64,000 bases of DNA, taken from a virus. The stretch covers positions 186,001-250,000 of IMG/VR virus record IMGVR_UViG_3300031576_000001; one strand, 5' to 3'. Positions 2,912 to 46,554 of the stretch are shown here, one piece after another (the stretch's first letter is position 1; each line of letters begins with the position of its first letter). Below the pieces are notes generated by a model that saw only the letters and a list, made by a program, of their open reading frames with translations, was not told where the DNA came from and made no database searches. Position numbers and translations under genes: made by a program.

Positions 2912-2918
2912 GCCTTGT

Positions 2919-2928
2919 TCTGTACACC
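2919..2928 (-). promoter_or_regulatory. Leaderless-type -10 box GGTGTACAGA
   Basis: Lies seven bases upstream of ATG 2911 on the minus strand. It is divergent from the box that drives the rightward replication operon. Confidence 0.6.
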
Positions 2929-2943
2929 ATCGCTCCATTAAAA

Positions 2944-2953
2944 GGTGTAGGTT
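2944..2953 (+). promoter_or_regulatory. Leaderless-type -10 box GGTGTAGGTT for the replication operon
   Basis: The TAGGTT hexamer ends eight bases before ATG 2962, so transcription should start at or next to the start codon. No good -35 is visible. Confidence 0.65.
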
Positions 2954-2961
2954 ACCCTGGC

Positions 2962-16716: not shown

Positions 16717-17089
16717 CACGTTTGCTTGCCAGATTCTCCGTGGGGAGACCATGCACGACGTTGTAGCCGCGGTTTACCAGGAAGCCTCTGCGTGCTCTTG
16801 TGCCTTCCCGGCACTCACTATACTAGGTAGGCTCCCTCTGGGTAAGGCGTGTTACGTCAGGCTCACCTTGGACTGTCACCCTGAGAGCTTCTCGGCGCTG
16901 GTCAACGCCCTTCTCACCAAGAGGGGGGTTGTAGCCTCTGAGCCTGGGAAGGGCTACGTGAGACGTGAGGGGGGCGAGGAAAGGGGCACGTTGCGTGTTG
17001 GTTTGATGCACGCGACACCCTTGGAATCTGACCACCGTGTCTATGTGGGCACGACACACCCCCACTGGCAACGACAGTTCCAAAGGTAA
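16706..17089 (+). CDS. Hypothetical protein, 127 aa
   Basis: Start at ATG 16706 overlaps the previous gene by 11 bases. The protein MVRNTFACQILRGETMHDVV... has alternating helices and strands, and cysteines near residue 29 in SACSCAF. No family recognised. It is the last gene before the nitrilase-fold gene. Confidence 0.6.
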   Translation: MVRNTFACQILRGETMHDVVAAVYQEASACSCAFPALTILGRLPLGKACYVRLTLDCHPESFSALVNALLTKRGVVASEPGKGYVRREGGEERGTLRVGLMHATPLESDHRVYVGTTHPHWQRQFQR

Positions 17090-17091
17090 CC

Positions 17092-17817
17092 ATGCTTCGC
17101 GTAGCCGCTGTCCAAATGGCCCCCGTGTTCCTCAACAAGGAGGCTAACCTGATGAGCATGGACCGCCTGATGCGCCAAGCCAAGGGCAAGGCAGACCTGA
17201 TCGCCTTCCCCGAACTTTGTACCACTGGCTATAGCCTCATGAGTGACAAAGAGGCTCGCAGCGTGGCGGAACCTGTCGAGGGTCTAACTTTTCAAGCCAT
17301 GCTCAGGCTAGCCCGTGCCTACGACATGACCGTGGTGTGGGGCATGGTCATCGAAGAGAAGGGCAAGCTGTACAATGGTCAAGTCTATATTGAGCCCAAC
17401 GGCAAGTGGGAGAAGGTCTACAAAATTAACCGATTCGGGCAGGACTGGATCTGGGCTACTGCCGGCGACGAAAGCCCCCCGATCATTACCCTCGATGACG
17501 GTACCAAGGTAGGCTTGCTTATCTGCCGCGACGTGCGTGACAAGTGGGGCAGATCCGAGAAGACGCTCTACAGCAAGGGGGATGCTGATATAGTTGTGCT
17601 GTCAACGGCCTGGGGTGACGGTGGCTTCCCAGCGGTAGCCTGGATGGACTTTGCAGAGCAAAACAAGACGGCGCTCGTCGTTTCAAACCGTTACGGCAGA
17701 GAGCGCAACAACAACTTCGGGGAGGGTGGTGTATGCGTGATCTCAAAGGACGGCAAAGTCTCCTGTGAGGGGCTACGGTGGAACATGGACTGCATTGTGT
17801 ACGCCACCATTGACTAA
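17092..17817 (+). CDS. Carbon-nitrogen hydrolase (nitrilase superfamily)
   Basis: Encodes 241 residues, close to the usual family length. The catalytic triad is visible: E41 in AFPELCTTGY, K111 in VYKINRF and C145 in GLLICRDVRD. The opening LRVAAVQMAP is also typical. Members hydrolyse amides or nitriles; amidase, carbamoylase or the glutaminase part of NAD synthetase are possible. The substrate cannot be told from sequence. No NAD-synthetase domain is attached. Its start follows the previous stop by two bases, so it belongs to the same operon. Confidence 0.88.
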   Translation: MLRVAAVQMAPVFLNKEANLMSMDRLMRQAKGKADLIAFPELCTTGYSLMSDKEARSVAEPVEGLTFQAMLRLARAYDMTVVWGMVIEEKGKLYNGQVYIEPNGKWEKVYKINRFGQDWIWATAGDESPPIITLDDGTKVGLLICRDVRDKWGRSEKTLYSKGDADIVVLSTAWGDGGFPAVAWMDFAEQNKTALVVSNRYGRERNNNFGEGGVCVISKDGKVSCEGLRWNMDCIVYATID

Positions 17818-18985: not shown

Positions 18986-20146
18986 ATGACCTACCCGAAC
19001 CTGGACGATAGATTTCAGCCGATCTACACCAAGCCCCTCACGGGGATTCCCACGGCAAAGCGTGCGCGAGCGGACGCTTCTAGCGCGGGGCTAGCGGGTC
19101 CAGCGCTAGACAGGGTGGTGAGGTTGGAGGGTGCAGAGAGGCACTGGGCGAGAACGACCGCTACCCTGGAAATGGCATTGTGGGCTGCTTTCTCGGTACG
19201 CCACCGGGACTGGCAAGAGGACACGGAGCACCGCAAGGGGTTTGCACGAGACGCGGCGAGCCTGGTCAGCGGGGGAGCCTCTGAGTTGCACTTCCTCACG
19301 GACGTGCTGGCGCTAGCCTGGGCGCACCTCACGTTGGACATCAACTACCACGGCGGCGGGAACGAGGACCAACCCGCCGTGCGCCTGCCCCCGTTCCGCT
19401 CTCTTGGGCTGGGCAAGTGGAACAAGATCGACACGGAGAGCTACGCCAGTGCCGGCAAGTCAGCCCTGGTCATCCTGGGCGAAGAGCTTGACGCTGAAGC
19501 CGAGAGGTACGCCCAAGAGGCGAGCGGGGCGACCGTTACTCAGTTTCAAGCCAGGGACGGTGAGTTGTACGTAGAGGTACGGGTAGGCTCCGTGCTTGCC
19601 GTGTCCACGCACGTTCCCCTGGCGTGGTACAGGGGGAGCGACCTCTGGGGGATTGACCCCTGGGTTGACCGTCTTTGCCTCGCCAAGCTGTCAGCCTGTC
19701 TCAAGTCTGGTTTCAAAGAGGGGATGTTGCCCTGGGCTACGTTGTACAACCGGCTGCAAGCCAGGCGCCGTGTCTTCCGGGCTGCACATTTCTGGTATGA
19801 CTTGCTGCAAAAGTTCCCCGAGTACATGGAGCCCGCCCGTACTGCTGAGCCTGGTTCGCCCCTTCACGCGGTGTGGCAGCTAGCGTGTTTGCCTTACGAG
19901 AGTGACCTCCTGGCGGCGGACCTGTGGCTCAAGAGTGTAGCCGAGGAGGGCGCTTCCATGTCACAAGCGCTAGCCTGGCTAGAGTCCCTCCACCACCTAG
20001 AGGGGGCTCTTGTCCCCCCGGACAGGGTAACCGACCATGACCTCAGTTTCCTCTCCAGCGCGTCTCCCTGCGAGGGTAGCCCAGCGTTACGCTGCAAAGA
20101 CGAAAGCCAAAGCGCCGCCGTCAGCCCCGGAGCCCACGGGGATTGA
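18986..20146 (+). CDS. Hypothetical protein, 386 aa
   Basis: ATG 18986 is fixed by the box at 18970-18979. The protein is mostly helical with many Trp and Tyr residues (AAHFWYDLLQKFPEYM) and no membrane segment or catalytic motif. It overlaps the next gene by about 110 bases in another frame. It precedes the group of tagged proteins and might be structural, which is a guess from position. Confidence 0.65.
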   Translation: MTYPNLDDRFQPIYTKPLTGIPTAKRARADASSAGLAGPALDRVVRLEGAERHWARTTATLEMALWAAFSVRHRDWQEDTEHRKGFARDAASLVSGGASELHFLTDVLALAWAHLTLDINYHGGGNEDQPAVRLPPFRSLGLGKWNKIDTESYASAGKSALVILGEELDAEAERYAQEASGATVTQFQARDGELYVEVRVGSVLAVSTHVPLAWYRGSDLWGIDPWVDRLCLAKLSACLKSGFKEGMLPWATLYNRLQARRRVFRAAHFWYDLLQKFPEYMEPARTAEPGSPLHAVWQLACLPYESDLLAADLWLKSVAEEGASMSQALAWLESLHHLEGALVPPDRVTDHDLSFLSSASPCEGSPALRCKDESQSAAVSPGAHGD

Positions 20147-21998
20147 GAAGGCAATCAAGGACGCCTTTGCTTCTCTGGGGGGCGAGTTGGGCTCTACGCT
20201 GGCTAGTGAGTTCGTCTCTGTTCTTGACAGCAAGCTAGAGAGCGCCCGTGAGCGTGTGCTCAACTTGTCTGCGAAGTCCTGGGCGGTGGCACGCAAGGGG
20301 ACAGAGACCTCCTCTTGGGAATCTGACGAGACAGGATACCACTACTCGGTCGAGCTAGACTACCCAGAGGTTGTAACGGCTACCGTGAAGGCGCCGTTGT
20401 CGTGGGACACACTAGTCACTGAGGTTGCCCAAGGGGTAGACACAAAGCACCGTGGTCTCGCCGTAGAAGTTATGCGTACCCCGGCAGTAAAAGCAGCTTG
20501 CCTCAAGGTGGCGGAAGAGCGGGTGGCGCTACAGACCATTGAAGCAGGAGAGCTACGGACCTCACCTCTGGGTGCGTCCGCGGTAGAGTTCGCTGAGGAC
20601 AAGTCACAAAGGTCCATCGACTCCGACGACGACCCCAACTACGAGATACCCTGGGGTAAGCACGAGATTACGGTACACGGGGGCAGCGTGACCGCAAAGC
20701 TAACCTCCTCTGGCGCGCTGGACGTACTCTTTACCGCGAGCGTCGGGCTAGAGGTTGAGTTTTTCTGGCCCGGTGACCGTGGGTACAACGATTGGTTACT
20801 TAGAGGCTCCCTGGCTTCTATCCCTCACAAACAGGGAGAAGCCATGCCCAAAGACGTTGACCGCTACCACGACGAAGTATTGAAAAGCAACCCTGACTAC
20901 TCAGAGGCTCAAGCATGGGCTACGGCGTGGTCAATTTTCTGCCGGAATAAAGACCCTGGGTCGGAGCACTGCAAGAAGCCCACGTCGGAGTACCTCTCAG
21001 GCAAAAATGCGGGGCTACTGGTCAGGGTCGCCTCTGCCTACCTCGACAAGCACGCAGCGCAAGACCCTGAGTATACCTCGCACCTCAAGCACTTCCTGGT
21101 AGCCCTGGACAAGGAGGTCAACAAGCTGGCGGGTCACCGAAGCGAGCCTTTGACGGTGACGACCAAGGACTTTGGTGGTGCGAGGGGTCTGCCGCGCGTC
21201 ATTGTCCAGGGACCGAAGGCACAGCACTACCTCTTCGTGGTCGAGAAAGGTAACCCCAAGAAAGCCTACGGGTGGCAAATTTCGCTGTGCGACGCAGAGA
21301 GCGGCGCCCCTCTGAAGGGTAAGAAGCCTGTGGGTACGCTGAACCCTCGCCCTGAGAAGCGCTGGGCAAAAGACCCCATTGGGTGGCACGACGCCTTTGC
21401 TAGCCTGCGGTCACTTGACCTTGACGCACTCTACGGCAAAGAGGACTTGACCGAGGAGGAGCTAGCCCCTGGGTCTACACGGTGGGACGCCCTTGAGGAG
21501 CTACCTCCCATGGAGACTGAGATTCCTGGGGACGACGCTAGCTGGTCTGACCTGGAACAAGTCAAGAATGCAGCAAAAGCTAAACCGTCTAGCAAGTGGA
21601 AAGACCTTGGCAGCTACAGTCGCGAGGCCACAGCGGTTGAAGAGGCTATTGCTAGTCTGGACGCGGTAGAGAAGGAAGTGAGCCAGGGTATCGAAGAGGC
21701 TACCTCCAAGCTCAGACCTACGTGGGTTGGGGACGCAAAGAAAGTGGTGGGTGAGGTTTACAACAAGCTCCAAGCTGCCTTGAGGAGTGCGGACTTGACG
21801 TTGGGGGCTATGGGTCCAGCACTCCGAAAGTTGCCCCTACACTCCAAGCTAACCCAAGAGGCTGTCGCCATGGTGTCTACTCTGGAGAGCGCGGTTACGC
21901 GGCTCACCGCAGTGCGAGCGGCTTTGAGTCGTGCCACGGTTGGGGACACCCCGGCGGTAGAAGCTGCTTTGGCAAAGACAAAAGCACTTCTAGGTTAG
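20037..21998 (+). CDS. Large modular protein with N-terminal and internal RVAxRY-like motifs and a PGSEHC module
   Basis: Encodes 653 residues. The N-terminus MTSVSSPARLPARVAQRYAA carries the RVAxRY motif. Around residues 270-320 lies MPKDVDRYHDEV...AQAWATAWSIFC...KDPGSEHC, a module widespread in large-phage proteins. It is followed directly by a second motif copy, LLVRVASAYLDK, near residue 330. The C-terminal third is acidic then helical and probably coiled. The repeated motif suggests a modular or processed polyprotein. Function unknown. The start overlaps the preceding gene by 110 bases; the motif position supports ATG 20037. Confidence 0.75.
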   Translation: MTSVSSPARLPARVAQRYAAKTKAKAPPSAPEPTGIEKAIKDAFASLGGELGSTLASEFVSVLDSKLESARERVLNLSAKSWAVARKGTETSSWESDETGYHYSVELDYPEVVTATVKAPLSWDTLVTEVAQGVDTKHRGLAVEVMRTPAVKAACLKVAEERVALQTIEAGELRTSPLGASAVEFAEDKSQRSIDSDDDPNYEIPWGKHEITVHGGSVTAKLTSSGALDVLFTASVGLEVEFFWPGDRGYNDWLLRGSLASIPHKQGEAMPKDVDRYHDEVLKSNPDYSEAQAWATAWSIFCRNKDPGSEHCKKPTSEYLSGKNAGLLVRVASAYLDKHAAQDPEYTSHLKHFLVALDKEVNKLAGHRSEPLTVTTKDFGGARGLPRVIVQGPKAQHYLFVVEKGNPKKAYGWQISLCDAESGAPLKGKKPVGTLNPRPEKRWAKDPIGWHDAFASLRSLDLDALYGKEDLTEEELAPGSTRWDALEELPPMETEIPGDDASWSDLEQVKNAAKAKPSSKWKDLGSYSREATAVEEAIASLDAVEKEVSQGIEEATSKLRPTWVGDAKKVVGEVYNKLQAALRSADLTLGAMGPALRKLPLHSKLTQEAVAMVSTLESAVTRLTAVRAALSRATVGDTPAVEAALAKTKALLG

Positions 21999-22006
21999 AA
22001 CACGCC

Positions 22007-23440
22007 ATGCTTTCCGAGAGAGTCGCGACCCGTTACCGTTGTGCGCAGCTAGCCAAGACGGCGGGCAGTGACCTTTGGGCGTCCGTGGTAGCCGCCCTGA
22101 CCCAAGCGGCTAGCGAGGCTAGTGCTTTGAAGGGCGCCGAGCCTGACACTGAGGAGGGTAAGCGTACTCTGCTCAACATGGTTCTACTGGGGACCGGGAA
22201 GCCCCTAGCCTCCTTGGCGGAAAACCCTACCTTCGTAAAGTGGGTCACGCTAGGTTTCCCTTCGGGTCAGGGTGCGGCTACGCTTGAGCAACTCACCGCC
22301 CTTTACGAGAACGCTAGGGAGGAAGCCAAAGCGGTACGCAATGGCGACCCAGTGTTTGAGTTCCGGCAAGCCGTGACCGCCTTTGAGCGCGTGGTCAATG
22401 ACCTCTTGGCAGAGCTAGCGCCTGAGCGTTTGACCTACCAAGGCTTTACGGTCACCAACTATGACCACATGAGCGATGCCGTGGTCCGTGGGCTCCTAGA
22501 GGGTGTGGATTACGTGGTAGCCCTGTTCAAGCGCAGAGGGCTAGAGAAGCTGTTGCACTCTGGGGTAACCGAGATTCACCTGGATATTGAGAACTACATT
22601 AGCGACAAACCTAGCACTCTAGGGCACTACCGTCCTTCTCAGAGGGCGATCCATATGTACCCTAATGGGCTCAGAATAGCCAACACCCCCAGAATGCTGA
22701 GCAAGTGGGTCAACGAGATATTCCTGCATGAGTTTGGGCATTACATTCACCTGGCGTACCTGCCCAAAGAAGCCATGGAGGCGTGGAACGCTACGTGGGA
22801 CGATTTCAAGGTCAAGTGTGAGGTTTTTACACAGGCGACCACAAACATTAGCGTGGAGGAACGTGCGCTATTCTGGTCATTGTTGCAGAAGAATGGCTAT
22901 CAACCGTCCAAGGTAGCACCCAAACTGAAGCCTTTCCTCAGATTGAAATTTGGTGCGTGGCTACGCCAGTACTACTCTGGTCCCCTCATTACAGCGGGGC
23001 AGTTCAAGCTGACCGAGAAGGGTAAGAACTTCTTTGCCCTCTTTGTGGACCCTGAGAAGTACATGCTGGAAGAGCGCGGTTACTATGTGGACGAGCCAGG
23101 GTACGCCAAGGAGTATCAGAAGCTAGAGCGTACCAGACTGACGGACATAGGACTCGTTAGCCCTTCGACCTTCCCGATCCCCAACGAAACGGTAGAAGAG
23201 ATCAAGAAGGCCAACCCTGAGCTAAAGGCTGAGGTTTCAGCGGAGCTAGACAAGTTGCAACCCGTATCGACCTACGGGCGCACCGACGAGATGGAGGACT
23301 TTGCAGAAGCCTTCGTGGCTTTCGTAGGGGCGCCTGAGAAGCTAACCCACATGGCGAAGTTCCGTATGCAGCGGGCGCTCTCTCTTGCTGGGCTGTACGG
23401 CAAAGAGGTCATGAAGCTAGCCCAGCACCCTGAGCAGTGA
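22007..23440 (+). CDS. Zinc metalloprotease-like protein 1 (HEFGH) with N-terminal RVAxRY motif
   Basis: Encodes 477 residues starting MLSERVATRYRCAQLA. HEFGH at residues 241-245 is a gluzincin-type HExxH site, and EDFAEAFVAF about 190 residues later supplies a likely third zinc ligand. A region before the site (RRGLEKLLHSGVTEI) aligns with similar regions in the two following genes, so the three are paralogues. Possible roles are maturation of phage proteins or attack on host proteins. The TAGGTT ending ten bases before ATG resembles the genome's -10 box and overlaps the previous stop. Confidence 0.8.
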   Translation: MLSERVATRYRCAQLAKTAGSDLWASVVAALTQAASEASALKGAEPDTEEGKRTLLNMVLLGTGKPLASLAENPTFVKWVTLGFPSGQGAATLEQLTALYENAREEAKAVRNGDPVFEFRQAVTAFERVVNDLLAELAPERLTYQGFTVTNYDHMSDAVVRGLLEGVDYVVALFKRRGLEKLLHSGVTEIHLDIENYISDKPSTLGHYRPSQRAIHMYPNGLRIANTPRMLSKWVNEIFLHEFGHYIHLAYLPKEAMEAWNATWDDFKVKCEVFTQATTNISVEERALFWSLLQKNGYQPSKVAPKLKPFLRLKFGAWLRQYYSGPLITAGQFKLTEKGKNFFALFVDPEKYMLEERGYYVDEPGYAKEYQKLERTRLTDIGLVSPSTFPIPNETVEEIKKANPELKAEVSAELDKLQPVSTYGRTDEMEDFAEAFVAFVGAPEKLTHMAKFRMQRALSLAGLYGKEVMKLAQHPEQ

Positions 23441-25126
23441 GGGATTCTCATCAGGCGCGAGGCTGGACAGCACGGACCTGAAACTCTCTAGCTGGTCTCT
23501 GTTGAGGCTCTCCTCCATGACGTAACGCTCAAAGACTTCTGCAAAGGCTTCCTCGATTGAGCCTGCCCCGTAATCAGACACGGCACTGACGGGCTTGATC
23601 TCACCTTGCGTGTCGGATACCTTGTCAAGATACTGGGTAACGAGAAGGTAAGCGTCCCAATGGTCCTTGCTCCAATCCAGGTACCACCTCGTTACACTCA
23701 AAGAGGCGAGTTCCTCCTTGCTGTAGAGCGCTATACCCTCCAGTGTGGCGAGGGTGCTGTAGATTGCGGTCTCAGCCTCCGAGAAGTCTACCCCGGGTAC
23801 GGTGGGTAGTATAGCTCTCAGGCTTCTCTCAAAGGCGTCCCTCAGTCCGTCTAGCTGCGAAACCAATGCTTTCAACAAGTCATCGCCCTCTTGGAAGAGC
23901 AGCTTGTAAATCTGAGTCTGAAAACTGTCAAATGCCTGTTGGGCTTCTTTCTTGACCTTACCTATATTGACAAGGGGAGCCTCTGGGTTGTACCTAACGC
24001 GGTATGGTCCAGAGGGGTACTCCCTGGTTTTCTCAGAGGTATTGGTGCGTACTAGGTCATTGAACCGAGCGCGTTGGTCTGACCGCATAAACTTGTACCA
24101 ATAACGGTGCCCCATTTCGTGAACAATGGTGTCCACCACCGATTGTCGAGGGGGTATGGTGAGCTTTACCGTGTCATCACCATCGTGGTACGTGCCTGCT
24201 GTACTCTCCAAAGAAGTGTAACCGTATTGCTGGTACGCCTCTTGAGCCGCGGGGCTCAGCTTGTCGTAGGACGTGCTACCTAGAAAGAACACCCCATACC
24301 ACAACTTGCCAAAACCCTTACGCTCCAAGAGAGACTTGGCTTCCATGAAGTATTGTGCGTAGGCTTCAGCGTTCGCTATCAGCTCAACCCCATAGCCCTC
24401 TTTGACGATGACTCTCAGTTTGCCAATGCTGAAGTCACGGTACCAGAGTAGGTCACCCTCCTCTTTGGCCTTCTCCGTATATTTAGCTGCCAGGATCTTG
24501 TAAATAAAATCAATCCTGGCGGGCACGTCCACCACGCGAGGGTGCTTCACCTTGACCCAGAGGCGCGGTATGGCGTTCTCGACCATGGCACGAGCCTTGG
24601 CGTTCAGGTTGTACAACCAAGGCTCGTCCTCCTTGACAAGCGCGTCCTTGTCCTCTTGGGGCATTCTGTTGGCTAGCCGGCTGGCCGTCGCCAGCAAAGC
24701 CGGTATGTCTACGTCAGGGTAGCTCTTTAGTTGAGCCGGTACGTTTCGACCGTAGACCTTCCAAGAGGCGTCTTCGATCAGGCGCCGGAACAGGCTGGCT
24801 AGCTTGGCGCTGGGCGAGTTATCGCCCTTGTACGGGATGGTCGCTAGCTTGGCGTCAAAGGCTAGCTGTCGTTTGTTAGCCTCCTCTAGGTCGTCGCGTA
24901 TGTCCTTGACGTACTCCTTGACAGCTTGCGCGGCTACCGGGTGGAGCCCCATCGCCTTTAGCTCGCGCTCAAAGGTCTCTAGCCAGTAGTAAAGGTCATG
25001 GATGTAGCTGAACGTATTCTTGTTCTTCAAGCCCTCGACAAGCTCTTTCTTCTTGGCTTGGAAGAACTTGATCGGCACAAAGCCGGCGTGTTTGGCGCGA
25101 TACCTGGCGACAAGACGGTCAATCAT
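23417..25126 (-). CDS. Zinc metalloprotease-like protein 2 (HEMGH) with N-terminal RVAxRY-like motif
   Basis: Encodes 569 residues on the opposite strand, starting MIDRLVARYRAKHAG. HEMGH lies at residues 336-340 (DTIVHEMGHRYWYKFM), and SIEEAFAEVFERYVM near the C-terminus gives the third ligand. RKGFGKLWYGVFFL upstream of the active site matches RSGFPQVCYGPVFI in the next gene. The 3' end overlaps the first protease gene by 24 bases. The long N-terminal helical region may be a binding or pro-domain. Confidence 0.8.
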   Translation of the reverse strand: MIDRLVARYRAKHAGFVPIKFFQAKKKELVEGLKNKNTFSYIHDLYYWLETFERELKAMGLHPVAAQAVKEYVKDIRDDLEEANKRQLAFDAKLATIPYKGDNSPSAKLASLFRRLIEDASWKVYGRNVPAQLKSYPDVDIPALLATASRLANRMPQEDKDALVKEDEPWLYNLNAKARAMVENAIPRLWVKVKHPRVVDVPARIDFIYKILAAKYTEKAKEEGDLLWYRDFSIGKLRVIVKEGYGVELIANAEAYAQYFMEAKSLLERKGFGKLWYGVFFLGSTSYDKLSPAAQEAYQQYGYTSLESTAGTYHDGDDTVKLTIPPRQSVVDTIVHEMGHRYWYKFMRSDQRARFNDLVRTNTSEKTREYPSGPYRVRYNPEAPLVNIGKVKKEAQQAFDSFQTQIYKLLFQEGDDLLKALVSQLDGLRDAFERSLRAILPTVPGVDFSEAETAIYSTLATLEGIALYSKEELASLSVTRWYLDWSKDHWDAYLLVTQYLDKVSDTQGEIKPVSAVSDYGAGSIEEAFAEVFERYVMEESLNRDQLESFRSVLSSLAPDENPSLLRVLG

Positions 25127-25152
25127 GGTGGTAGCCCGGTGTATAAGGCGGG

Positions 25153-25158
25153 TAGACT
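25153..25158 (+). promoter_or_regulatory. Possible -10 box TAGACT
   Basis: The same GGCGGGTAGACT context occurs ahead of the methyltransferase start at 29416. Here it lies 30 bases upstream of ATG 25189, implying a short leader. Confidence 0.4.
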
Positions 25159-25188
25159 AAGAGCCCTCTTTTCCACAGGTTCTTCTGT

Positions 25189-26367
25189 ATGACCGTCAAG
25201 CAAGCCGCCTCTATGGGTGACCCCGCGGTACTTCTATCGCAACTTTCCAGTCTTAGCTTCGACCTGGACCGCAACGTGGCGGATCTCAAGGAGTACCACG
25301 CCAAGCTAGAGCGCCGCGACCCAGACCGTTACCGTAACAGTTCTATCGTAGATGCTGCTTGGAAGCAATTCGGAGACATTCTCGGGTCACGTAAGGTGCG
25401 CGACCTTGGTTTTGCGCTCCTACAGGATTACGATATGACGGTAGCCCACCGAAAGGCTGTCGAGGTGGGGGTACACTTGCTCAGTCACGGCGCCCGTCCC
25501 AAGGCGCCAAGGACGGGTGACCGCGCGTTGGCAATGGCTAGCTTCGTCTTGGACCGGTGCATCACGGTGCAGAACCTTCTCAGCTCCGCAAAGGTGGTCA
25601 TTGAGTCAGGCAAGAAGCACAGCACAGAGGGTGTGGGTGCTACAGCCAACGCAACGAAGTTTCCCGCAGGCAGCTTCACAGTAGTCAACTCTGGCGGGTT
25701 CCCTGAGAAGACCATCAGAACGGTCGTGGACCTTGTAAAGAAGGCGGACCAGGCTCTAAAGCGCAGTGGATTCCCGCAGGTTTGCTATGGCCCCGTGTTC
25801 ATCACGAAGACAGTGGGTCGCTCGTCCAGTGTGCTGGCGTTCTACGATCTGAAGACGGATGATATGTACGTCCGCGCTAACCTGAAAGGCTCGGGCAACA
25901 GCATCCTCCTGAACTTCTTGCATGAGGTAGGGCACCGCTTTGACTTCAAGTTTCTAAAGGATAACCAGGGTAAGCAACGCCTCTACAATGAGGTTTCCAG
26001 GCAAGAGGGTCAACGTGAATTTATCGCACCCATCGTGGGTACACAGTTCAAAGACCACAAAGGTCTGAACTGGGAGGTTCTACGTGTAAGCGGCTCTTCC
26101 CTCTATGTGCAAGACGCAGAGGGGCGCACGGGGACAATGAGTGTGCGTGGGTACTATGAGCAGACCGGCAAACTAAGGGACACGGCTAACCCTAAGCACC
26201 TTGGGTTTGTGTCTGCTTATGCCAAGACTGACCCCGATGAGAACTTCGCTGAAATGTTCTCTCTGTACTGTGATGATACGCTCCCCGTCATGCAAAGCCT
26301 CTCCTTTGAGGAAGTGTGCTTTGGTAAGCAGGACACGTCACGCAAGACCGCGTTAGCTCAGAGCTAA
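25189..26367 (+). CDS. Zinc metalloprotease-like protein 3 (HEVGH)
   Basis: Encodes 392 residues. HEVGH at residues 245-249 (LNFLHEVGHRFDFKFL) and ENFAEMFSLYC near the C-terminus form the metallopeptidase site. It is the shortest of the three paralogues and lacks the RVAxRY-like N-terminus seen in the other two. It is transcribed divergently from protease 2, with 62 bases between starts. ATG 25213 is an alternative start. Confidence 0.8.
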   Translation: MTVKQAASMGDPAVLLSQLSSLSFDLDRNVADLKEYHAKLERRDPDRYRNSSIVDAAWKQFGDILGSRKVRDLGFALLQDYDMTVAHRKAVEVGVHLLSHGARPKAPRTGDRALAMASFVLDRCITVQNLLSSAKVVIESGKKHSTEGVGATANATKFPAGSFTVVNSGGFPEKTIRTVVDLVKKADQALKRSGFPQVCYGPVFITKTVGRSSSVLAFYDLKTDDMYVRANLKGSGNSILLNFLHEVGHRFDFKFLKDNQGKQRLYNEVSRQEGQREFIAPIVGTQFKDHKGLNWEVLRVSGSSLYVQDAEGRTGTMSVRGYYEQTGKLRDTANPKHLGFVSAYAKTDPDENFAEMFSLYCDDTLPVMQSLSFEEVCFGKQDTSRKTALAQS

Positions 26368-26841
26368 GGCGCCCATTAGCTCGCCCCAGTCCGAGGCTAG
26401 TAGGAAGTCGGCACAGAGGTGTACACCCTCAGTCAGCCTCGGGAGCTTGCGGTAGGCACACCCAAGAGGCGCTGTCCCTGCAAGGCAGGGGGGCTCAGGC
26501 GTGTCCTCCTCGCGCAGCCGCGGACCTTCGTAGCACTGGCTACCCAGGCGAGACCCGTAGGTGTACGCCTCGCTGTAGTACGGGCAGTGGTTAGCGGAGA
26601 CCTCTTCGGGGGTAAACTCGACCGTGATCCGCCAGTGTCCCCTTATAGGCTTCTGACCTGACCAGTTCTTGGGGAGGGGCAACAGGGTGCTCAGGTAGGC
26701 TCGCCCCTGTGCCTGACTGCAACGGTAGTTAGGGCAGTCAAGGTAAGCGTCCGGGTGGCGGTCAAAGAAGCTTGTGTCGCCGTCGCCTGTAAAGTAGCGG
26801 TCAACGAGCACGGTCTCTTTACGGAGGGGGGGTGACGGCAT
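26353..26841 (-). CDS. Cysteine-containing hypothetical protein
   Basis: Encodes 162 residues. The start is set by a GGTGTACCAT box eight bases upstream of ATG 26841. Eight cysteines are spread along the chain (CPNYRCS, NHCPYY, SQCYEG, PPCLAG, LGCAYR, HLCADF). No signal peptide or family is seen. The 3' end overlaps protease 3 by 15 bases. Confidence 0.65.
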   Translation of the reverse strand: MPSPPLRKETVLVDRYFTGDGDTSFFDRHPDAYLDCPNYRCSQAQGRAYLSTLLPLPKNWSGQKPIRGHWRITVEFTPEEVSANHCPYYSEAYTYGSRLGSQCYEGPRLREEDTPEPPCLAGTAPLGCAYRKLPRLTEGVHLCADFLLASDWGELMGALALS

Positions 26842-26849
26842 GGGGGCTC

Positions 26850-26859
26850 ATGGTACACC
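26850..26859 (-). promoter_or_regulatory. Leaderless-type -10 box GGTGTACCAT
   Basis: Eight bases upstream of ATG 26841 on the minus strand. Confidence 0.6.
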
Positions 26860-26880
26860 TCTTTTCCTCGCACGTCTACC

Positions 26881-27960
26881 ATGACGAGCACGCTAACCGA
26901 GCGAGTGGTAGCCAGACACCTCTCAGCCTACGTAGAGGTGCCGGACTACGACGAGCCCGAGGAAAACGACTTTGAGGCTGCCAAGAGGGAAGACCTTGCC
27001 TATTGGGACAAGGTGGAGGCGGTCTTCTTCAAGTTCGCCAAGACCTACGTGAAGCCTCTGGTAGCCAACCCCAGCTTTGAGCCGGAGTTTCGCTCTGCGG
27101 TGTCTGACTGCTTCTTCAAGGCGAAGGGCTCTCACACACAGTTCAACATTGCATTGGCTTTGCACACCCGCTCCCCCCGAGGGTGCTATCAGTCGCCCTT
27201 GGAGCACTCGTGGAACTACCGTAACAAAGAGGCCATTGCCTACGCTAATAAGCTGCGCACCGGGAAGAAGCTAGACCGGGCACACCGGCAGATTGAGTCT
27301 GTCGAGGGTTGGTTCCGTAGCCTGGCAGAGTTCAAGGCGTACAGTGAGGGCACCGAGATCATGGAGGCGCTAGAGGCTACGGCTGACGTTTCCGGGTGGT
27401 CTCAAAAGTGCCTGGACGTAGCTAACGCCCTCTCCGACCACGTACACAAACTCAAGTACGCCTCGTCCATGTGGGGTAGCCCTACCATTCTCAAGAACTT
27501 CCAAGAGGCATGGGACGTGGCGCGTCAGGGCTACAAGACGATAAAGCCCATCTTTGAGAAGGCGTGGCTACAGTTTTGTGGGGCTGACCGGCAGCTAGAC
27601 AAGTTCACAGACGCTTGGTGGAAGGTACGCCAGATTACCCTAAAGGCTTACGAGGATTTCCGAGTGGGGGACAAGTCCGCCGTCGTAAAGCTCTACGCTG
27701 TCCGTGTCGAGACGTGCCTCCGTCAGTACCACGAGGTCATGGACCGGGGGCGAGAGGCTTTCGACCGTGACCTCTTCGTCAAGGCGACCAAGTGGAGCGA
27801 CATGCAGTCCGAGTACCAAAACGCTCAGAGGAAATTCTTGATAGACTTGATAGACTGGGATCTGCCATGGCCTTGGACGGAGCACCACCCAAAATCCTGC
27901 ATACTCAAGGCGGTCACTCAGCTTGAAGCCTTGGACCGCAAGCGTGGCACACTGTTCTGA
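26881..27960 (+). CDS. Helical protein with RVAxRY-like N-terminal motif
   Basis: Encodes 359 residues beginning MTSTLTERVVARHLSAY, the tag shared with neighbours. The rest is predicted helical, rich in Trp, Lys and Glu, with no enzymatic motif. It could be a virion or scaffold component. The tag is the only link to the other proteins. Start at ATG 26881 lies 21 bases beyond a divergent promoter box. Confidence 0.7.
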   Translation: MTSTLTERVVARHLSAYVEVPDYDEPEENDFEAAKREDLAYWDKVEAVFFKFAKTYVKPLVANPSFEPEFRSAVSDCFFKAKGSHTQFNIALALHTRSPRGCYQSPLEHSWNYRNKEAIAYANKLRTGKKLDRAHRQIESVEGWFRSLAEFKAYSEGTEIMEALEATADVSGWSQKCLDVANALSDHVHKLKYASSMWGSPTILKNFQEAWDVARQGYKTIKPIFEKAWLQFCGADRQLDKFTDAWWKVRQITLKAYEDFRVGDKSAVVKLYAVRVETCLRQYHEVMDRGREAFDRDLFVKATKWSDMQSEYQNAQRKFLIDLIDWDLPWPWTEHHPKSCILKAVTQLEALDRKRGTLF

Positions 27961-27970
27961 ACGTCTCCCC

Positions 27971-27980
27971 GGTGTAGAAC
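27971..27980 (+). promoter_or_regulatory. Leaderless-type -10 box GGTGTAGAAC
   Basis: Six bases upstream of ATG 27987. Confidence 0.6.
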
Positions 27981-27986
27981 CACCCC

Positions 27987-28328
27987 ATGCGTCGAGAAGC
28001 CAAGAAAACCACGGGGAGTGTAGCAAAGCAGCGCAGTAAGCACCTACTTGCCCAGCGCCAGCGCGACGCCATGCAAGCACTACACGAGGGTAAGGAAACC
28101 CGCCTCTTGGTGGTACCCTACTTCGGCGGCAAAAGGCAGTGGATGGTAGTCACTCCCATTTCTAGTGACACCGCGCCCCAGAGTGGAGTGACAGTAGTGG
28201 CTCTAGCCGGGGGCGTTATCCAAGAGGGTGTAGTCATCGACAAGGACGGGCGCACCTTTGCTACCAACAGGCGAGACTATTACGACAGCACAGTCAAAGT
28301 GCTAGGCTCCGTCAAGTTGACCACGTAG
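27987..28328 (+). CDS. Small basic hypothetical protein
   Basis: Encodes 113 residues with a Lys/Arg/Gln-rich N-terminus and a strand-rich C-terminal part (RLLVVPYFGGKRQWMVVTP). It starts from its own leaderless promoter. No family recognised. Confidence 0.65.
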   Translation: MRREAKKTTGSVAKQRSKHLLAQRQRDAMQALHEGKETRLLVVPYFGGKRQWMVVTPISSDTAPQSGVTVVALAGGVIQEGVVIDKDGRTFATNRRDYYDSTVKVLGSVKLTT

Positions 28329-28339
28329 CCCCCCAAAGC

Positions 28340-28345
28340 TACACT
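28340..28345 (+). promoter_or_regulatory. Leaderless-type -10 box TACACT
   Basis: Seven bases upstream of ATG 28353; the GGTG prefix is replaced by AAGC. Confidence 0.5.
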
Positions 28346-28352
28346 CCCTACC

Positions 28353-28709
28353 ATGGACGTTTGCAGCGTTGTCCCTGCCAACCTGAGTGAAGCCCTCGTC
28401 TACATAGACGACACCTGGCCCGACATGCGCGAAGAGCTAATCGAGCATGGTCCTGTGGCGTATCACAGCACCATGGGGATGCACCTTCGGAACATCTTTG
28501 GGCTGTGGTACAAGAGCCCCCTCGCTCAACACCTAGAGAAGCACTGGGGCGTTTCCCACCCAGACGACATGAGCGGGCTTCTCTTGGAGCAATGGGTCAC
28601 CTGGCTCAAGAAAGCCAAGCCCGCCCTCCCATGGGAGCCTGGTTACGTACCGCCCTGGGTCGAGCCTCCCACCTGTTTGACTCTGGCGACCGAGATTGCT
28701 TTATCGTAG
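28353..28709 (+). CDS. DUF6794 domain protein
   Basis: Encodes 118 residues. The sequence AYHSTMGMHLRNIFGLWYKS followed by PLAQHLEKHWGVSHPDDMSG is the DUF6794 signature (H-x-GLG-x-x-IRNxxGLW, then HPDDMS). The family is common in bacteria, including Myxococcota, and has no known function. The end overlaps the convergent DUF6197-like gene by 67 bases. Confidence 0.75.
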   Translation: MDVCSVVPANLSEALVYIDDTWPDMREELIEHGPVAYHSTMGMHLRNIFGLWYKSPLAQHLEKHWGVSHPDDMSGLLLEQWVTWLKKAKPALPWEPGYVPPWVEPPTCLTLATEIALS

Positions 28710-31386: not shown

Positions 31387-33942
31387 ATGACCGTGCCACC
31401 CCCCGTGAACACCGTGCTCCTTGGCGACTGCCTCTCACACCTACGCACCCTGGACAGTGATTCCGTTGACGCTGTAGTGACCGACCCCCCTTACGGGTTG
31501 GGTACCAAGGAACCCACGGGTCAAGAAATTGTAGACTACATACAGGGTAAAGCGCTCGACACAGGCGGCGACTTCATGGGGCGCGAGTGGGCCATACCCT
31601 CTGTGGAAACGTGGAAAGAGGTCTACAGGGTGCTCAAACCAGGGGCACATTGTTTGGTATTTGCTGGGACTAGAGCCTGGGATTTGATGGCTCTCGGGCT
31701 AAGGGTAGCTGGCTTTGAGTTTCGAGACACCATAGCTGATTTGCACCCAGCGCTTGTTTGGCTACAAGGGAGCGGGTTTCCCAAGGGGCTGGACGTGGGA
31801 AAAGCCATTAATAAGAAGAAGGGTGCAGAGAGAGCAGTGGTTGGGATTGATCCCAACCACCGAAGCGTTTCAGGTGTAAGTTATCAGGGAGCTTACGCGG
31901 GTGGAAACACAGGAGCGCCTGTACTCACAGCACCAGCAACACCCGAAGCTAAGCAATGGGATGGCTGGAATGTAGCTCTAAAACCCTCTTGGGAGCCCAT
32001 CCTTGTTTGCCGCAAGCCCCTCTCTGAAAAGACCGTAGCGGCTAACGTCTTGAAGCACGGTACAGGGGCGATTCACATAAACGCCTGCCGTGTAGGTACA
32101 GCTAAAAATGTACCGACCTCCGCGGGTCGGAGCACCCACAGCAACGCTTGGGGAGGTGATAGTCTAAGGCACGAGACAGGCGAAGAGGGTGGGCACAACC
32201 CTAACCTTGGACGCTGGCCACCTAACGCTACCTTTACGCATAGCGAGGAGTGCCAGCCTATCGGTACCAAGAGAGTCAAACTTGTGGGCGCTACGGCACA
32301 CAGAACGGGTCAGGGTAGTGGTGGGACGTTTGTGCCCCAAGGCTCCCCTCATGCAGGCTACAAAGACGACGACGGCACGGAAACAGTAGAGGCGTGGGTT
32401 TGTACTGAGAACTGCCCTGTGTGTTTGCTGGATGCACAGAGCGAGGCTTTGGGTATACACCCTGCGGGCAACACAGCCGTTTCAGAGTGCCACCACAATG
32501 GAAGTGTAGCCTTTGGTAATATAGGGTCGATAGCACACAACCCTAACACCTACAAGGACGAGGGTGGTGCTTCCAGGTTCTTCCCTCAATTTGAGCCGTT
32601 CAAGTACGTTCCTAAAGTACATACCAAGGAACGCACCCAAGATGGCAGGCTGACCAACCCTCACCCTTGTTTGCACCCGGATGCTCTGGTTTTGACGGAG
32701 GATGGGTACAGACAGATTTCTGCGATTGAGGTAGGTAACCGTGTTTACGCTGCTGACGGGCGGTTTCATCTCGTCTCACACACCACCCGCCACACGTACA
32801 CTAAAGAGCATCTTTACAGGATACACGTAAAAGGACTTTCTGACGATACCCTTGTCACCAACAACCACCCATTTCTAGTTTGGCGCCCTACTCGCCAAGG
32901 CGCCAGGGTAGTATCAGGTCAAGTCGCCTGGGTTAGAGCTGAGGATCTTAGGGTGGGGGACTATACCATGACCCCACGATTGGCTGAATCGGTCGAGACC
33001 CCGATTGACCTCCCTACTGATCCTGAGCTTTGGTTTCTGTTCGGTTTGTACCTTGCCGAAGGCAGCCTAGATACGAAGGGTTACCTTGTTTTTTCGCTAC
33101 ACCAAAAAGAAACGTACTTTGTGGATAAAATGAGACAATGTTACGGTGCTAGTACCGTTAGGACGTACCCCTCCAAACAATCACTAAGTATGAACGTGTT
33201 TGTGTTTAGTAAACAAGCTGGTGCCTGTTTCAAGGCTTGGGGGGGCTCTGGGGCTTCTAAAAAAAGGTTGGCTCCTGTCATCTGGAGTTTGCCTCAGCCC
33301 CTTCGACGCATGATATTTCAAGGCTGGATGGCTGGCGACGGTGGGTTGATTCGCAACCACTGGCAAGCAAAAACAGTGTCACCGGACCTGGCTGTACACA
33401 TGATGCTGCTAGGCGAGTCCTGCGGTTACAAGGCGCGGGTCTACCGTTCCATGGGTACAACCAAGGGTATCGGTACCAGGCTCTTCAAGAAAACACTACC
33501 CGTGTACCAACTAGACTTCAGTAAGTCAGATCGACTAGCGGGGCCCGTAGCCGTGAGGTACGAGGATACGGATTACACACTTCGGTATGTGGATAGCGTC
33601 GGTAAGGAATCGTATTGTGGAGAGGTCGTCAACCTCTCCGTTGAGGGTAGCCCTACGTTTATGACTGCCATAGGTATGAGCCATAACACCCTCAAGCCAC
33701 TCGCACTTCTCCGTTGGCTCGTAACGCTCGTGACCCCCCCTAACGGGCTCGTACTGGACCCCTTCTGTGGCTCTGGTACAACGTTGCAAGCGGCTATCGA
33801 GCTAGGCTTCTCTGCCTTGGGTTGCGAGAAAGACCCTGAGTTTCACAAGCTGAGCCAGGACCGCTTGGCACTGGTTCTCCAAGCACAGCAAGACAAAACG
33901 GACGCCCGTAGAGGGTTGTCTATGCTGGACGACATGGAGTAA
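31387..33942 (+). CDS. DNA methyltransferase (N4/N6, DPPY first) interrupted by an intein
   Basis: The 851-residue precursor contains an intein at residues 428-767, leaving an enzyme of 511 residues. Catalytic motif IV is VVTDPPYGLG near residue 35. SAM-binding motif I, VLDPFCGSGTTLQAA, comes near the C-terminus, giving the beta-class order. The intein splits the conserved HP-T-KPLAL segment. The middle of the extein has several cysteines (CTENCPVCLLD), possibly a zinc site in the target-recognition region. It could methylate cytosine N4 or adenine N6. It is the second of three DNA methyltransferases here. Confidence 0.9.
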   Translation: MTVPPPVNTVLLGDCLSHLRTLDSDSVDAVVTDPPYGLGTKEPTGQEIVDYIQGKALDTGGDFMGREWAIPSVETWKEVYRVLKPGAHCLVFAGTRAWDLMALGLRVAGFEFRDTIADLHPALVWLQGSGFPKGLDVGKAINKKKGAERAVVGIDPNHRSVSGVSYQGAYAGGNTGAPVLTAPATPEAKQWDGWNVALKPSWEPILVCRKPLSEKTVAANVLKHGTGAIHINACRVGTAKNVPTSAGRSTHSNAWGGDSLRHETGEEGGHNPNLGRWPPNATFTHSEECQPIGTKRVKLVGATAHRTGQGSGGTFVPQGSPHAGYKDDDGTETVEAWVCTENCPVCLLDAQSEALGIHPAGNTAVSECHHNGSVAFGNIGSIAHNPNTYKDEGGASRFFPQFEPFKYVPKVHTKERTQDGRLTNPHPCLHPDALVLTEDGYRQISAIEVGNRVYAADGRFHLVSHTTRHTYTKEHLYRIHVKGLSDDTLVTNNHPFLVWRPTRQGARVVSGQVAWVRAEDLRVGDYTMTPRLAESVETPIDLPTDPELWFLFGLYLAEGSLDTKGYLVFSLHQKETYFVDKMRQCYGASTVRTYPSKQSLSMNVFVFSKQAGACFKAWGGSGASKKRLAPVIWSLPQPLRRMIFQGWMAGDGGLIRNHWQAKTVSPDLAVHMMLLGESCGYKARVYRSMGTTKGIGTRLFKKTLPVYQLDFSKSDRLAGPVAVRYEDTDYTLRYVDSVGKESYCGEVVNLSVEGSPTFMTAIGMSHNTLKPLALLRWLVTLVTPPNGLVLDPFCGSGTTLQAAIELGFSALGCEKDPEFHKLSQDRLALVLQAQQDKTDARRGLSMLDDME
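32668..33687 (+). mobile_element. Intein 3, in the methyltransferase HPTxKP motif
   Basis: The 340-residue intein starts with Cys (CLHPDALVLTEDG) after NPHP and ends MSHN before extein Thr. Block B is TNNHPFLVW. Homing-endonuclease-type motifs are LFGLYLAEGSLD and IFQGWMAGDGGL. Codons are more AT-rich than the extein, with homopolymer A runs near 33260. Its insertion point is an invariant methyltransferase motif. Confidence 0.9.
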
Positions 33943-36935: not shown

Positions 36936-37235
36936 ATGTACGGCGACTGTATGAAATGGTGCCCTGTCTGCGACAAGTACTACGAGGACTTGTCCCCTCG
37001 CAGTTACTCGCGTGCCCCCGAGTGTCCTGTATGCCCTAAGAAGTCCACCAATGCTCAAACCCCGCGCACGTCGCGGTGCAATTGGCATGGTGGGTCGGGA
37101 CCGAAGAGTGACGAGTGCCCCGACTGCGTGGAGTTTGAGCGTTGGCGGGACGAGAAGATCCGGGAGGAGCGCAGGAACCCCCCGGAGCGCCCCCCGTACA
37201 GCGAGGAGCAGGACAGGCAATGGTGGCGGTGGTAA
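36936..37235 (+). CDS. Cysteine-rich zinc-finger protein
   Basis: Encodes 99 residues. ATG 36936 is preceded by GGAGG at six bases, one of the clearest ribosome-binding sites of the window. CPVCDKYY, CPVCPKK and CPDCVEFERW give three CxxC knuckles. The end is rich in Arg, Glu and Pro. Function unknown. Confidence 0.7.
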   Translation: MYGDCMKWCPVCDKYYEDLSPRSYSRAPECPVCPKKSTNAQTPRTSRCNWHGGSGPKSDECPDCVEFERWRDEKIREERRNPPERPPYSEEQDRQWWRW

Positions 37236-44739: not shown

Positions 44740-46554
44740 ATGACGCTATGTGACCGGGTAGCCGCGAAGTACAAAGAGAAGAAGAAGGTCAAGACCCAGA
44801 AGGGCGAGTCTACGGTCTACCTCTACTCGGAACGCCAGGTCAAGAACCGCAACAAGGAAAAGGCCAAGAGGCTAGAGTCTCTTCGCAAGAACATTGGTGA
44901 CCTTATGGGTCGCGTCAAGCGTGACCTAAAGTCTGAGGACGTGGACACCAAGCTAACCGCGCTCGCCGTTGCGCTTGTTGACTCTACGTATGAACGAATT
45001 GGAAATGAGGAATCTGCGGACGAGCGTGGGCACTACGGGGTTACCGGGTGGCTCAAAAGTCACGTCAAGTTCAGCAAGAGCAAGGCGGTTATCAAGTACA
45101 CGGGCAAGGCTGGCGTCGAGCACACCAAGGAAGTAAAAGACAAAGCCATTCTCTCCGCGCTACGTGACGCTTGCGAGGCGGTTGAGAAAGACGACCCGAT
45201 CTTTGAGTACGACGGGGGCACCGTGACCCCTGAGAAGGTCAATGCTTACCTGAAACCGTCCAAGATAACAGCCAAGGACTTGAGGGGCTATCATGCTAAC
45301 GATACGATCAAGGCCATTCTGAGGACTCTACGCGGTAAGGGCGGCAAGCTCCCCAAAGACAAGGAGGAGCGCAAAGCTAAGCTCAAAGAGGAATGGAAAC
45401 AAGCCCTCGCAGAGACGGCTGAGATTATTGGGCATGAGTCCATTACATTGAAAAAAAGCTACCTTGTGCCCGGGCTTGAGGCAGACTTCATGAAAAACGG
45501 CACGGTAAACGATAAGATGGCTTCCCTACAAAGCTCCCGGTACTCTTCTATTGCTCAGCGAGTAAGCCAGCGATGGGCGCACCTTCACGATTGCGTGATC
45601 CACGCGGGCTGCCCTGTGTGTGGCTTCACGGTGGACGAGGCTACCGGAGAGGTATACGACCCTGGCTACCCCTGTCCTGTGTGTGGCGTGGGTGGCGCCG
45701 TTGTGCTTTCCGCTGAGGACTCCCTGGGTCGACAGAAGATAGCCTCTGAGGCGGACTCTGAGGTTACGCTAGCGGCTCGCGTGATGGTAGCGGCTTATCA
45801 AGGCTCCCCGGGGATAGACAAGACTGCCAACATGGCGGGTCGTGTCAAAGACCTACTTGCCCTTTGGAAGCGGGCACCCTCCGTGTGGGAGAAGATCAAA
45901 GAGGCTATTGGTTTGCCCGACGACTTCGACAGCCTCTCGATGCTGGGCAAGGCGCACGCCCTCATGGGAGCCTTCAAGGAGTTTGCGGCGCAGGGGAAGA
46001 AGGCAGTCGCCCACATTTTCCACCAGCTACCGACGACCTTCCCTCTCAGCATGTTCTTCGTGCCGCGTAAGAAGGTGCCAGGCATCACGGACCTTTTGGC
46101 AAGACTGGTTGACGAGGTACCCTGGCTCAAGTCCGCGCTAGGCAAGGCGAGCGCTCACCTGGGGAAGCTGGACGACTTGCTCGACAAGTACGTGCCCATA
46201 ACCAGCAAGGTCATCAAGGCTGCCGCCTTTATCTGGGTCTGGTTTGCGGCAGCCGAGCTATCGTGGGACATACCGTTTCTGGTCAGGGGTTTTACGGGGC
46301 TCATCGGGCTAGGGGAGCTTTTCGGCTCCATGCCAGAGAGCGCCCTGGGTCTGATAGCCAGCATGTTTGGGCTAGGGTACGGCGCCCTCCCGGTTACCTT
46401 GGTTATCCGGCTTGTCTGGCTTGTCGCAGAGGATTACCTCTCTTGGGTACCCGGCAAGGGGCTCAAGGTTCACTGGGACAAGCTAGGCATACAACGCCAC
46501 GATGAGCTAGTGGTGACTGCGTTAGTCACCCCACCCCGGGCACGTTCTCTTTAG
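44740..46554 (+). CDS. Topoisomerase IB fused to a zinc-finger/membrane region, with RVAxRY-like motifs
   Basis: Encodes 604 residues. The N-terminus MTLCDRVAAKYKEKKK carries the tag. Residues 10-255 are bacterial-type topoisomerase IB: ALVDSTYERIGNEE, HYGVTGWLKSHV, YTGKAG, DLRGYHANDT and GHESITLKKSYLVP, the last with the active-site Tyr. It should relax supercoils by a 3'-phosphotyrosine. After residue 265 comes another motif, AQRVSQRWAHL, then two CPVCG knuckles, a third related AARVMVAAYQ, and a helical part with hydrophobic segments near the end (AAFIWVWFAAAELSW and LPVTLVIRLVWLVA). Fusion of a topoisomerase to such a tail is unusual; cleavage into two proteins is possible. Confidence 0.82.
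   Translation: MTLCDRVAAKYKEKKKVKTQKGESTVYLYSERQVKNRNKEKAKRLESLRKNIGDLMGRVKRDLKSEDVDTKLTALAVALVDSTYERIGNEESADERGHYGVTGWLKSHVKFSKSKAVIKYTGKAGVEHTKEVKDKAILSALRDACEAVEKDDPIFEYDGGTVTPEKVNAYLKPSKITAKDLRGYHANDTIKAILRTLRGKGGKLPKDKEERKAKLKEEWKQALAETAEIIGHESITLKKSYLVPGLEADFMKNGTVNDKMASLQSSRYSSIAQRVSQRWAHLHDCVIHAGCPVCGFTVDEATGEVYDPGYPCPVCGVGGAVVLSAEDSLGRQKIASEADSEVTLAARVMVAAYQGSPGIDKTANMAGRVKDLLALWKRAPSVWEKIKEAIGLPDDFDSLSMLGKAHALMGAFKEFAAQGKKAVAHIFHQLPTTFPLSMFFVPRKKVPGITDLLARLVDEVPWLKSALGKASAHLGKLDDLLDKYVPITSKVIKAAAFIWVWFAAAELSWDIPFLVRGFTGLIGLGELFGSMPESALGLIASMFGLGYGALPVTLVIRLVWLVAEDYLSWVPGKGLKVHWDKLGIQRHDELVVTALVTPPRARSL

Follow-up and report, generated by a model that had tools for sequence, protein, structure and literature searches.

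Three adjacent genes for putative zinc-dependent proteases (zincins) are described here from the window, the whole stretch of 64,000 nucleotides analysed, which covers positions 186001-250000 of the virus record IMGVR_UViG_3300031576_000001 in IMG/VR (322,633 bases; hereafter G000). Their products are called zincin A (477 amino acids, aa), zincin B (569 aa) and zincin C (392 aa), and coordinates are those of the window unless a record or locus is named. A and B begin with a short peptide of the form RVAxRY, hereafter the tag. We consider it moderately probable that the trio are stand-alone zinc endopeptidases of the type found in polyvalent proteins, that the tag brings them into the virion, and that they cut host proteins after injection. 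This reading draws support from the sequence motifs, from a zincin-like fold indicated by model and by profile, from the old divergence of the paralogues, from how often the tag recurs and from the head genes seen near some relatives.

Active sites, fold and age of the three zincins

The layout reported in a first-pass annotation of this DNA, three consecutive HExxH genes of these lengths on the +, - and + strands, was confirmed, as were the HEFGH, HEMGH and HEVGH sites. The genes of A and B converge and share 24 bases at their 3' ends.

22007..23440, + strand: zincin A, 477 aa, tag at the N-terminus
22727..22741, + strand: HEFGH active-site helix of zincin A, residue 241
23273..23308, + strand: Y423-x6-E430-x-F-A-E434 of zincin A, FAE at residue 432; catalytic Tyr and third ligand by analogy
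23417..25126, - strand: zincin B, 569 aa, tag at the N-terminus; relatives found with alignment A6
23537..23572, - strand: Y519-x6-E526-x-F-A-E530 of zincin B, FAE at residue 528
24107..24121, - strand: HEMGH of zincin B, residue 336
25127..25188, no strand: 62-base intergenic stretch from which B and C are read in opposite directions
25189..26367, + strand: zincin C, 392 aa, without the tag
25921..25935, + strand: HEVGH of zincin C, residue 245
26218..26253, + strand: Y344-x6-E351-x-F-A-E355 of zincin C, FAE at residue 353

For the third-ligand segment the annotation had given E-[ED]-x-FAE-x-F. A downstream FAE is present in all three proteins, but the formula is inexact, and the motif common to A, B and C is Y-x6-E-x-F-A-E-x-F, located roughly 95 to 180 residues after HExGH. 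Because the shared motif reads in this way, the third zinc ligand is likely the Glu two residues ahead of FAE. The combination that defines zincins, HExxH followed by a Glu ligand that a subsequent helix supplies, is thus found in A, B and C, and in the model of C the two helices span residues 236-255 and 349-361. Similarly, the LWYG region proposed as common to the trio is clear in B and C, while its Tyr is replaced by His in A. Dead active sites were not found: none of 62 aligned zincin open reading frames (ORFs) lacks HExxH at the aligned place. Three apparent exceptions among the relatives (L107, L113 and L116) were an artefact of searching for HE.GH only, and L113 at least has HEVAH.

Common ancestry, also claimed at first pass, stands. 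Blastp between the paralogues gives weak but real matches (B-C, 8e-5; A-C, 3e-3), and a family profile of 38 relatives, which includes C and leaves out A and B, matches B alone (99.6%, E 1e-24) and, by hhalign, A alone (97.9%, E 4e-13). These comparisons support A, B and C as paralogous metalloproteases.

The structure prediction suggested as a check was carried out for A and for C, with AlphaFold2 in the case of C. Both models best match the zincin domain of anthrax lethal factor, although the model of A is poor. By VIA-align, the model of C matches lethal factor 4pku with Z 11.4 (3.6 A over 157 residues) and PPEP-3 with Z 9.5, and the best match of the A model is lethal factor 1pwp (Z 11.4). 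In the model of C, strands at 201-206, 217-220 and 225-229 accompany the HExxH helix and the Glu helix. Furthermore, the profile of 38 relatives, run against PDB sequences, finds lethal factor at 2.9e-5 with both motifs aligned and the same Tyr/Glu spacing, and the lethal-factor/PPEP fold with a Tyr and a Glu at +7 is seen in the models of A and C. The closest fold of the trio is, as these models and profiles support, that of the lethal-factor/PPEP zincins, for which we take M34 to be the family name. Lethal factor domain IV and PPEP have in common with the trio HExxH, a Tyr and a third-ligand Glu seven residues apart, and the ExFAE helix; in contrast to them, the trio is phage-borne and not known to be secreted. 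Since the gathering score of the Pfam model ATLF (PF07737) is not reached (C scores 12.6 bits where 27.4 are needed, and A and B do not match), the trio is called M34-like rather than placed in M34. Other family models give no firmer assignment: C scores 23.9 bits against the 25.6 required for Peptidase_Mx1 (PF15890), which A and B do not match, PHROGs give nothing below 0.03 for the three, NCBIfam gives only a weak lipoprotein-type zincin match under the cut-off for C, and no Pfam model named MPTase-PolyVal matches any of them at E up to 10.

M34-like peptidases are already annotated in cultured jumbo phages. A Foldseek search against BFVD returned three viral matches, from Erwinia phage pEa_SNUABM_5 (1.6e-3), Pseudomonas phage PaBG (a "putative peptidase", 4.2e-4) and Achromobacter phage Motura (8e-5), which resemble the trio in predicted fold. 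The PaBG entry, S5WBB3, is presumably gp182, going by the names. gp182 also matches the family profile (E 5.9e-9) and has HEYGH and Y-x6-E; it differs in being a single zincin outside the head module and in having no tag (best score 6.4).

Relatives of the trio were searched for among the viral contigs of IMG/VR, where searches with one protein gave few, and A or B as a single query none. Alignments A7 and A6 gave 34 and 30 loci on contigs of 5.8 to 536 kb, and after removal of 11 that were duplicates or already known, 53 of the 64 were kept; five contigs contributed two or three loci each, so that the 53 loci sit on fewer than 53 contigs. In cellular genomes, one scan with the profile of one subfamily (A7) gave 20 pattern stretches and no relative. 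One zincin domain is found in 34 of the 53 loci, two in 16, three in two and four in one, as counted with a profile that was built on most of those same sequences. For example, L120 has four zincins on one strand beside a terminase gene, and L121 has three in a row. The view of the first-pass annotation that three side by side are rare needs to be qualified: adjacency is not rare among relatives, since 19 deduplicated loci have at least two domains close together. These phages repeatedly carry zincins next to one another.

A FastTree tree of 65 non-redundant cores (joined conserved blocks, midpoint root) bears on the age of the trio. Since a sequence entered the tree only if it fitted regular expressions for HE.GH and the Y/E motif, these residues are conserved in the set by construction. 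The most recent common ancestor of A, B and C holds all 65 tips; B falls in a 6-tip clade (0.97), C groups with a zincin of the phage record G001 (0.945), and A lies in an 11-tip clade at 0.48 only and is poorly placed. Because the common ancestor spans the whole tree and the nearest neighbours of B and C in it belong to other phages, the trio is not a recent local triplication, and on this tree the duplication behind it is old. Local tandem duplication was ruled out as its origin, B and C each being nearer to zincins of other phages than to one another.

The RVAxRY tag and its carriers

The peptide R-[VL]-[AV]-x-R-[YH] opens not only A and B but also the two flanking proteins, of 653 and 359 aa. 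Scores below are from a position-specific scoring matrix (PSSM) of nine columns, made from 29 seed peptides picked by hand from the window and the first relatives.

22013..22039, + strand: tag of zincin A, SERVATRYR, residues 3-11, PSSM score 23.8; A is among the seeds
25097..25123, - strand: tag of zincin B, IDRLVARYR, residues 2-10, weaker, PSSM score 14.8; B is among the seeds
20037..21998, + strand: tagged neighbour of 653 aa, tag PARVAQRYA, residues 11-19
26881..27960, + strand: tagged neighbour of 359 aa, tag TERVVARHL, residues 6-14; no known family
44740..46554, + strand: tagged type IB topoisomerase (TopIB), Pfam Topoisom_I 4e-26; the ORF opens at 44269
44749-44775, + strand: tag of TopIB, CDRVAAKYK; TopIB is a frequent companion of zincins in relatives

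The consensus is L-A-E-R-V-A-x-R-[YF]-L-x-A-K. At a score of at least 16, 73 matches were found in 2576 proteins (six phage records and the fetched loci), against 0.5 per shuffle; as the seeds came from those genomes, counts in this set and in G000 to G003 and W01 are partly circular. Thirty of the 73 lie no more than 20 residues from the start, 10 no more than 15 residues from the end, and 33 are internal as called, the last group including ORFs whose start was called too far upstream. A stricter pattern, limited to the first 40 residues, finds 4 genes in G000 against 0.19 expected. Six G000 genes (at record positions 14935, 65904, 93216, 206037, 208007 and 212881) have the tag near the N-terminus at a score of at least 17. 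Among 51 held-out zincin ORFs, 11 have a tag of at least 14 that precedes the domain, compared with 17 among 445 other ORFs (Fisher p 2.6e-5), a test that favours the zincins somewhat, since the stretch searched was up to 360 residues for them and 250 for the controls, and in which some of the control ORFs are themselves zincins or TopIB. Altogether 22 of 53 zincin domains are in an ORF with a tag anywhere (a count without a control), and in 10 of the 15 TopIB loci a tag of at least 12 stands no more than 60 residues upstream of TopIB.

Both HExGH and RVAxRY are short, and could in principle be chance or compositional strings in Arg- and Ala-rich proteomes. This is hardly credible, in view of the excess of tags over shuffled proteins, of the zincin profiles, which recover the family over more than 100 residues, and of the outgroup PaBG, where 215 ORFs from the parts that were fetched give one tag-like match of 14.6 and none of at least 16.

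Several carriers of the tag are not proteases. A HAD phosphatase (HAD_SAK_1, 2e-24) of a family associated with RNA repair has it at the C-terminus. In phage record LR745208, a 2H phosphoesterase (2_5_RNA_ligase2, 5e-13) is followed by copies of the tag in the same ORF (L050:5198-6688, - strand); its match to the model of the anti-CBASS protein Acb1 is weak (0.003, under the cut-off). There are also less clear cases. The tagged 214-aa protein at G000 16819-17463 (- strand, L005), which opens with MTLPLRAQRYLKEAG, has a HEMTH site and no family or zincin-profile match, and a tagged protein at 21656-22450 of LR745208 has HEVTH. The TopIB of the window has a second tag-like string, RVSQRW, after the catalytic domain. 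A tagged zincin of G001 (L076:12146-13672, - strand) ends in a stretch that looks ADP-ribosyltransferase-like by eye and where Pfam gives weak zinc-ribbon-like matches only. A 1177-aa protein upstream of the terminase in G000 (62374-65907; L008:5374-8904), with internal repeats seen by eye, is followed by a tagged 129-aa gene.

It had been proposed at first pass that the zincins may process the tagged proteins nearby. This seems the less likely reading: A and B are tagged themselves, and the tag also occurs at C-termini and inside multidomain proteins. For these reasons the tag looks more like a routing peptide than like a label for substrates, although it may also be cleaved. A wider form of the proposal is that the zincins are maturation proteases which cut polyproteins or tagged virion proteins in head assembly, the tag marking or adjoining the cleavage site. 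The part of PMC5512222 that treats such zincins indeed proposes that they process multidomain polypeptides, with P1 DdrB as the example, and in some large proteins the tag stands between modules. We nevertheless hold this to be improbable. A cut at the 30 and 10 tags near the extreme N- or C-terminus would free almost nothing, the residues after the tag show no strong pattern beyond A or K, a prohead protease gene is already present in these phages, and G000 keeps three zincins without having a zincin-TopIB polyprotein.

In G000, then, one short terminal peptide is common to several unrelated proteins of one phage, as in capsid targeting, and its recurrence on many otherwise unrelated proteins of other huge phages suggests routing, perhaps to the phage head and from there into the host. 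In T4 and P1, internal proteins reach the head by means of short sequences at their N-termini, and the P1 DarB gene adjoins those of the portal and the prohead protease (PMC5694885, PMC9024508). Head routing by RVAxRY is proposed by analogy with these sequences, which it resembles as a short terminal peptide; RVAxRY differs in standing at either end and inside proteins. The strings RVAxRYL and its variants appeared in no paper of the literature searched.

Genomic context and possible delivery to the host

A terminase, portal or prohead-protease gene is present in the fetched stretch of 9 of the 53 relative loci (portal in 7), and TopIB in 15. In L099, L101, L107, L115 and L116, a large ORF directly after the portal gene holds both a zincin and TopIB; the corresponding ORF of L125 holds two zincins, and in L113 two consecutive zincin ORFs follow the portal gene, the second with TopIB. 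In Rctr197k an ORF of 2175 aa, flanked by terminase and portal, includes a zincin. Pfam finds inorganic pyrophosphatase (InPase), RNA ligase and PolyA_pol domains in the large proteins of L115, L099, L116 and L110, and the gene order in W01 and G003 is portal, HAD phosphatase, TopIB, protease. In G000 itself, the protein encoded between portal and protease (1175 aa, 72970-76497) shares homology with a part of the large proteins of the zincin-TopIB type, while the zincins and TopIB stand alone elsewhere, and for this reason G000 may be said to carry a split polyvalent protein. TopIB matches occur in five of the six phage records, G000 included, and among 50,697 phage records only in LR745208, which is metagenomic. 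The TopIB match of G001 (32659-33405, L073) has one in-frame TAG.

Those phage polyvalent proteins that are likely packaged share for the most part, according to Iyer et al. (2017, PMC5512222), an association with the portal-terminase packaging system; phage polyvalent proteins are proposed there to be packaged and injected, their zincins processing them or attacking host proteins. The zincin-like metallopeptidases (MPTases) of that survey (12 clades) resemble the trio in the three-stranded sheet, the HExxH helix and the later Glu helix, and they resemble its relatives in the portal-terminase context and in multidomain forms with InPase and nucleotidyltransferase-type companions. They differ from A, B and C, which have one recognisable enzyme domain each, lie three in a row far from the head genes and include terminally tagged members. 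At least two effector domains in one polypeptide, the usual mark of a polyvalent protein, are found in L099, L115, L116 and Rctr197k, and the neighbourhood of portal or terminase genes in the 9 loci above, not in the trio.

With fold and context supported in this way, we infer packaging, injection and host targets as follows. The active site would be of the lethal-factor/PPEP kind, with two His, a Glu seven residues after the Tyr and a general-base Glu. A large protein of zincin and TopIB, as found beside the portal and prohead-protease genes in several relatives, would be split into lone parts in G000, and RVAxRY, which A, B and other proteins of this phage have at an end, would serve there as a docking tag. 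The zincins would be made late and bound to the prohead through the tag, then packaged along with the DNA, and would enter the host with it; there the early-diverged subfamilies might cut different host proteins, for instance defence or regulatory ones. Distinct host targets for A, B and C, an idea already raised at first pass, are compatible with the data and would be our preference. More tentatively, and with somewhat less confidence than in the trio, RVAxR[YF]L may be a portable cargo-loading peptide of a huge-phage lineage, used at either end or between modules, which would load mixed enzymes into the virion for host delivery, an arsenal of separate proteins that other phages carry as one polyvalent polypeptide. 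The cargo would possibly comprise several lethal-factor-like proteases, TopIB, the HAD phosphatase and the 2H phosphoesterase that is weakly Acb1-like.

Several observations weigh against packaging and injection. Zincin C has no tag, and an in-frame stop lies 11 codons ahead of its start; likewise 31 of 53 held-out zincin domains are in ORFs without a tag of at least 14. The trio is about 130 kb away from the portal and prohead-protease genes of G000, with replication genes upstream, and no head gene is found in the fetched stretch of 44 of the 53 loci. As for the fold, the model of C, made with six sequences, is moderate (predicted local distance difference test, pLDDT, 71.7; predicted template modelling score, pTM, 0.49), that of A has a pLDDT of 49.1, and Foldseek of the C model against PDB gave 458 matches at E up to 10 and none at 1e-3. 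Finally, the 14 virion proteins of PaBG in Table 1 of PMC7412058 (stained gel and matrix-assisted laser desorption/ionization, MALDI) include neither the zincin gp182 nor the topoisomerase gp84, both untagged.

Some of these points would agree with another reading, in which the zincins are made and act on host proteins inside the infected cell and the tag is an intracellular address for a replication compartment, a membrane or a phage-made body. The trio is beside replication genes and not in the head module, a related zincin is missing from the PaBG list (PMC7412058), and the tagged TopIB, HAD phosphatase and 2H phosphoesterase would all serve inside the cell. We think it unlikely, however, as some relatives hold tagged and zincin genes directly between portal and prohead protease, and as the polyvalent proteins of phages that are likely packaged are, in the account of PMC5512222 cited above, mostly tied to the portal-terminase system.

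Surroundings of the trio and wider meaning

The zincin profile, run over the whole G000 record, finds A, B and C as its only copies, and if frames of at least 100 aa are considered, only one further HExxH occurs in the window, at 36938, where the frame is 134 aa long. In the 653-aa neighbour, residues 270-300 weakly match a PHROG family of head maturation proteases (E 0.018). No sigma-70-like promoter was found in 19900-28100 (0 sites against 2.0 expected), and terminator-like sites in the trio region number 10 against 7.1 expected, counts that carry little information. Megablast of 20000-28700 against phages gave no match. Elsewhere in the window, a DNA helicase ORF (2893-7050) contains, at residues 759-963, a stretch that resembles a LAGLIDADG homing endonuclease and may be an intein.

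Neither zincins as parts of polyvalent proteins nor M34-like peptidases of jumbo phages are new in kind. As far as our searches of the literature show, arrays of old zincin paralogues with a shared terminal tag have not been described. If packaging through the tag is true, a nine-residue signature would reveal from huge-phage genomes which proteins enter with the DNA, most of them unannotated. It would also tie stand-alone proteases to the polyvalent-protein idea and make it possible to test directly how host-modifying enzymes are packed by huge phages. Should the tag prove to be an intracellular address instead, it still singles out a gene set that nothing else groups.

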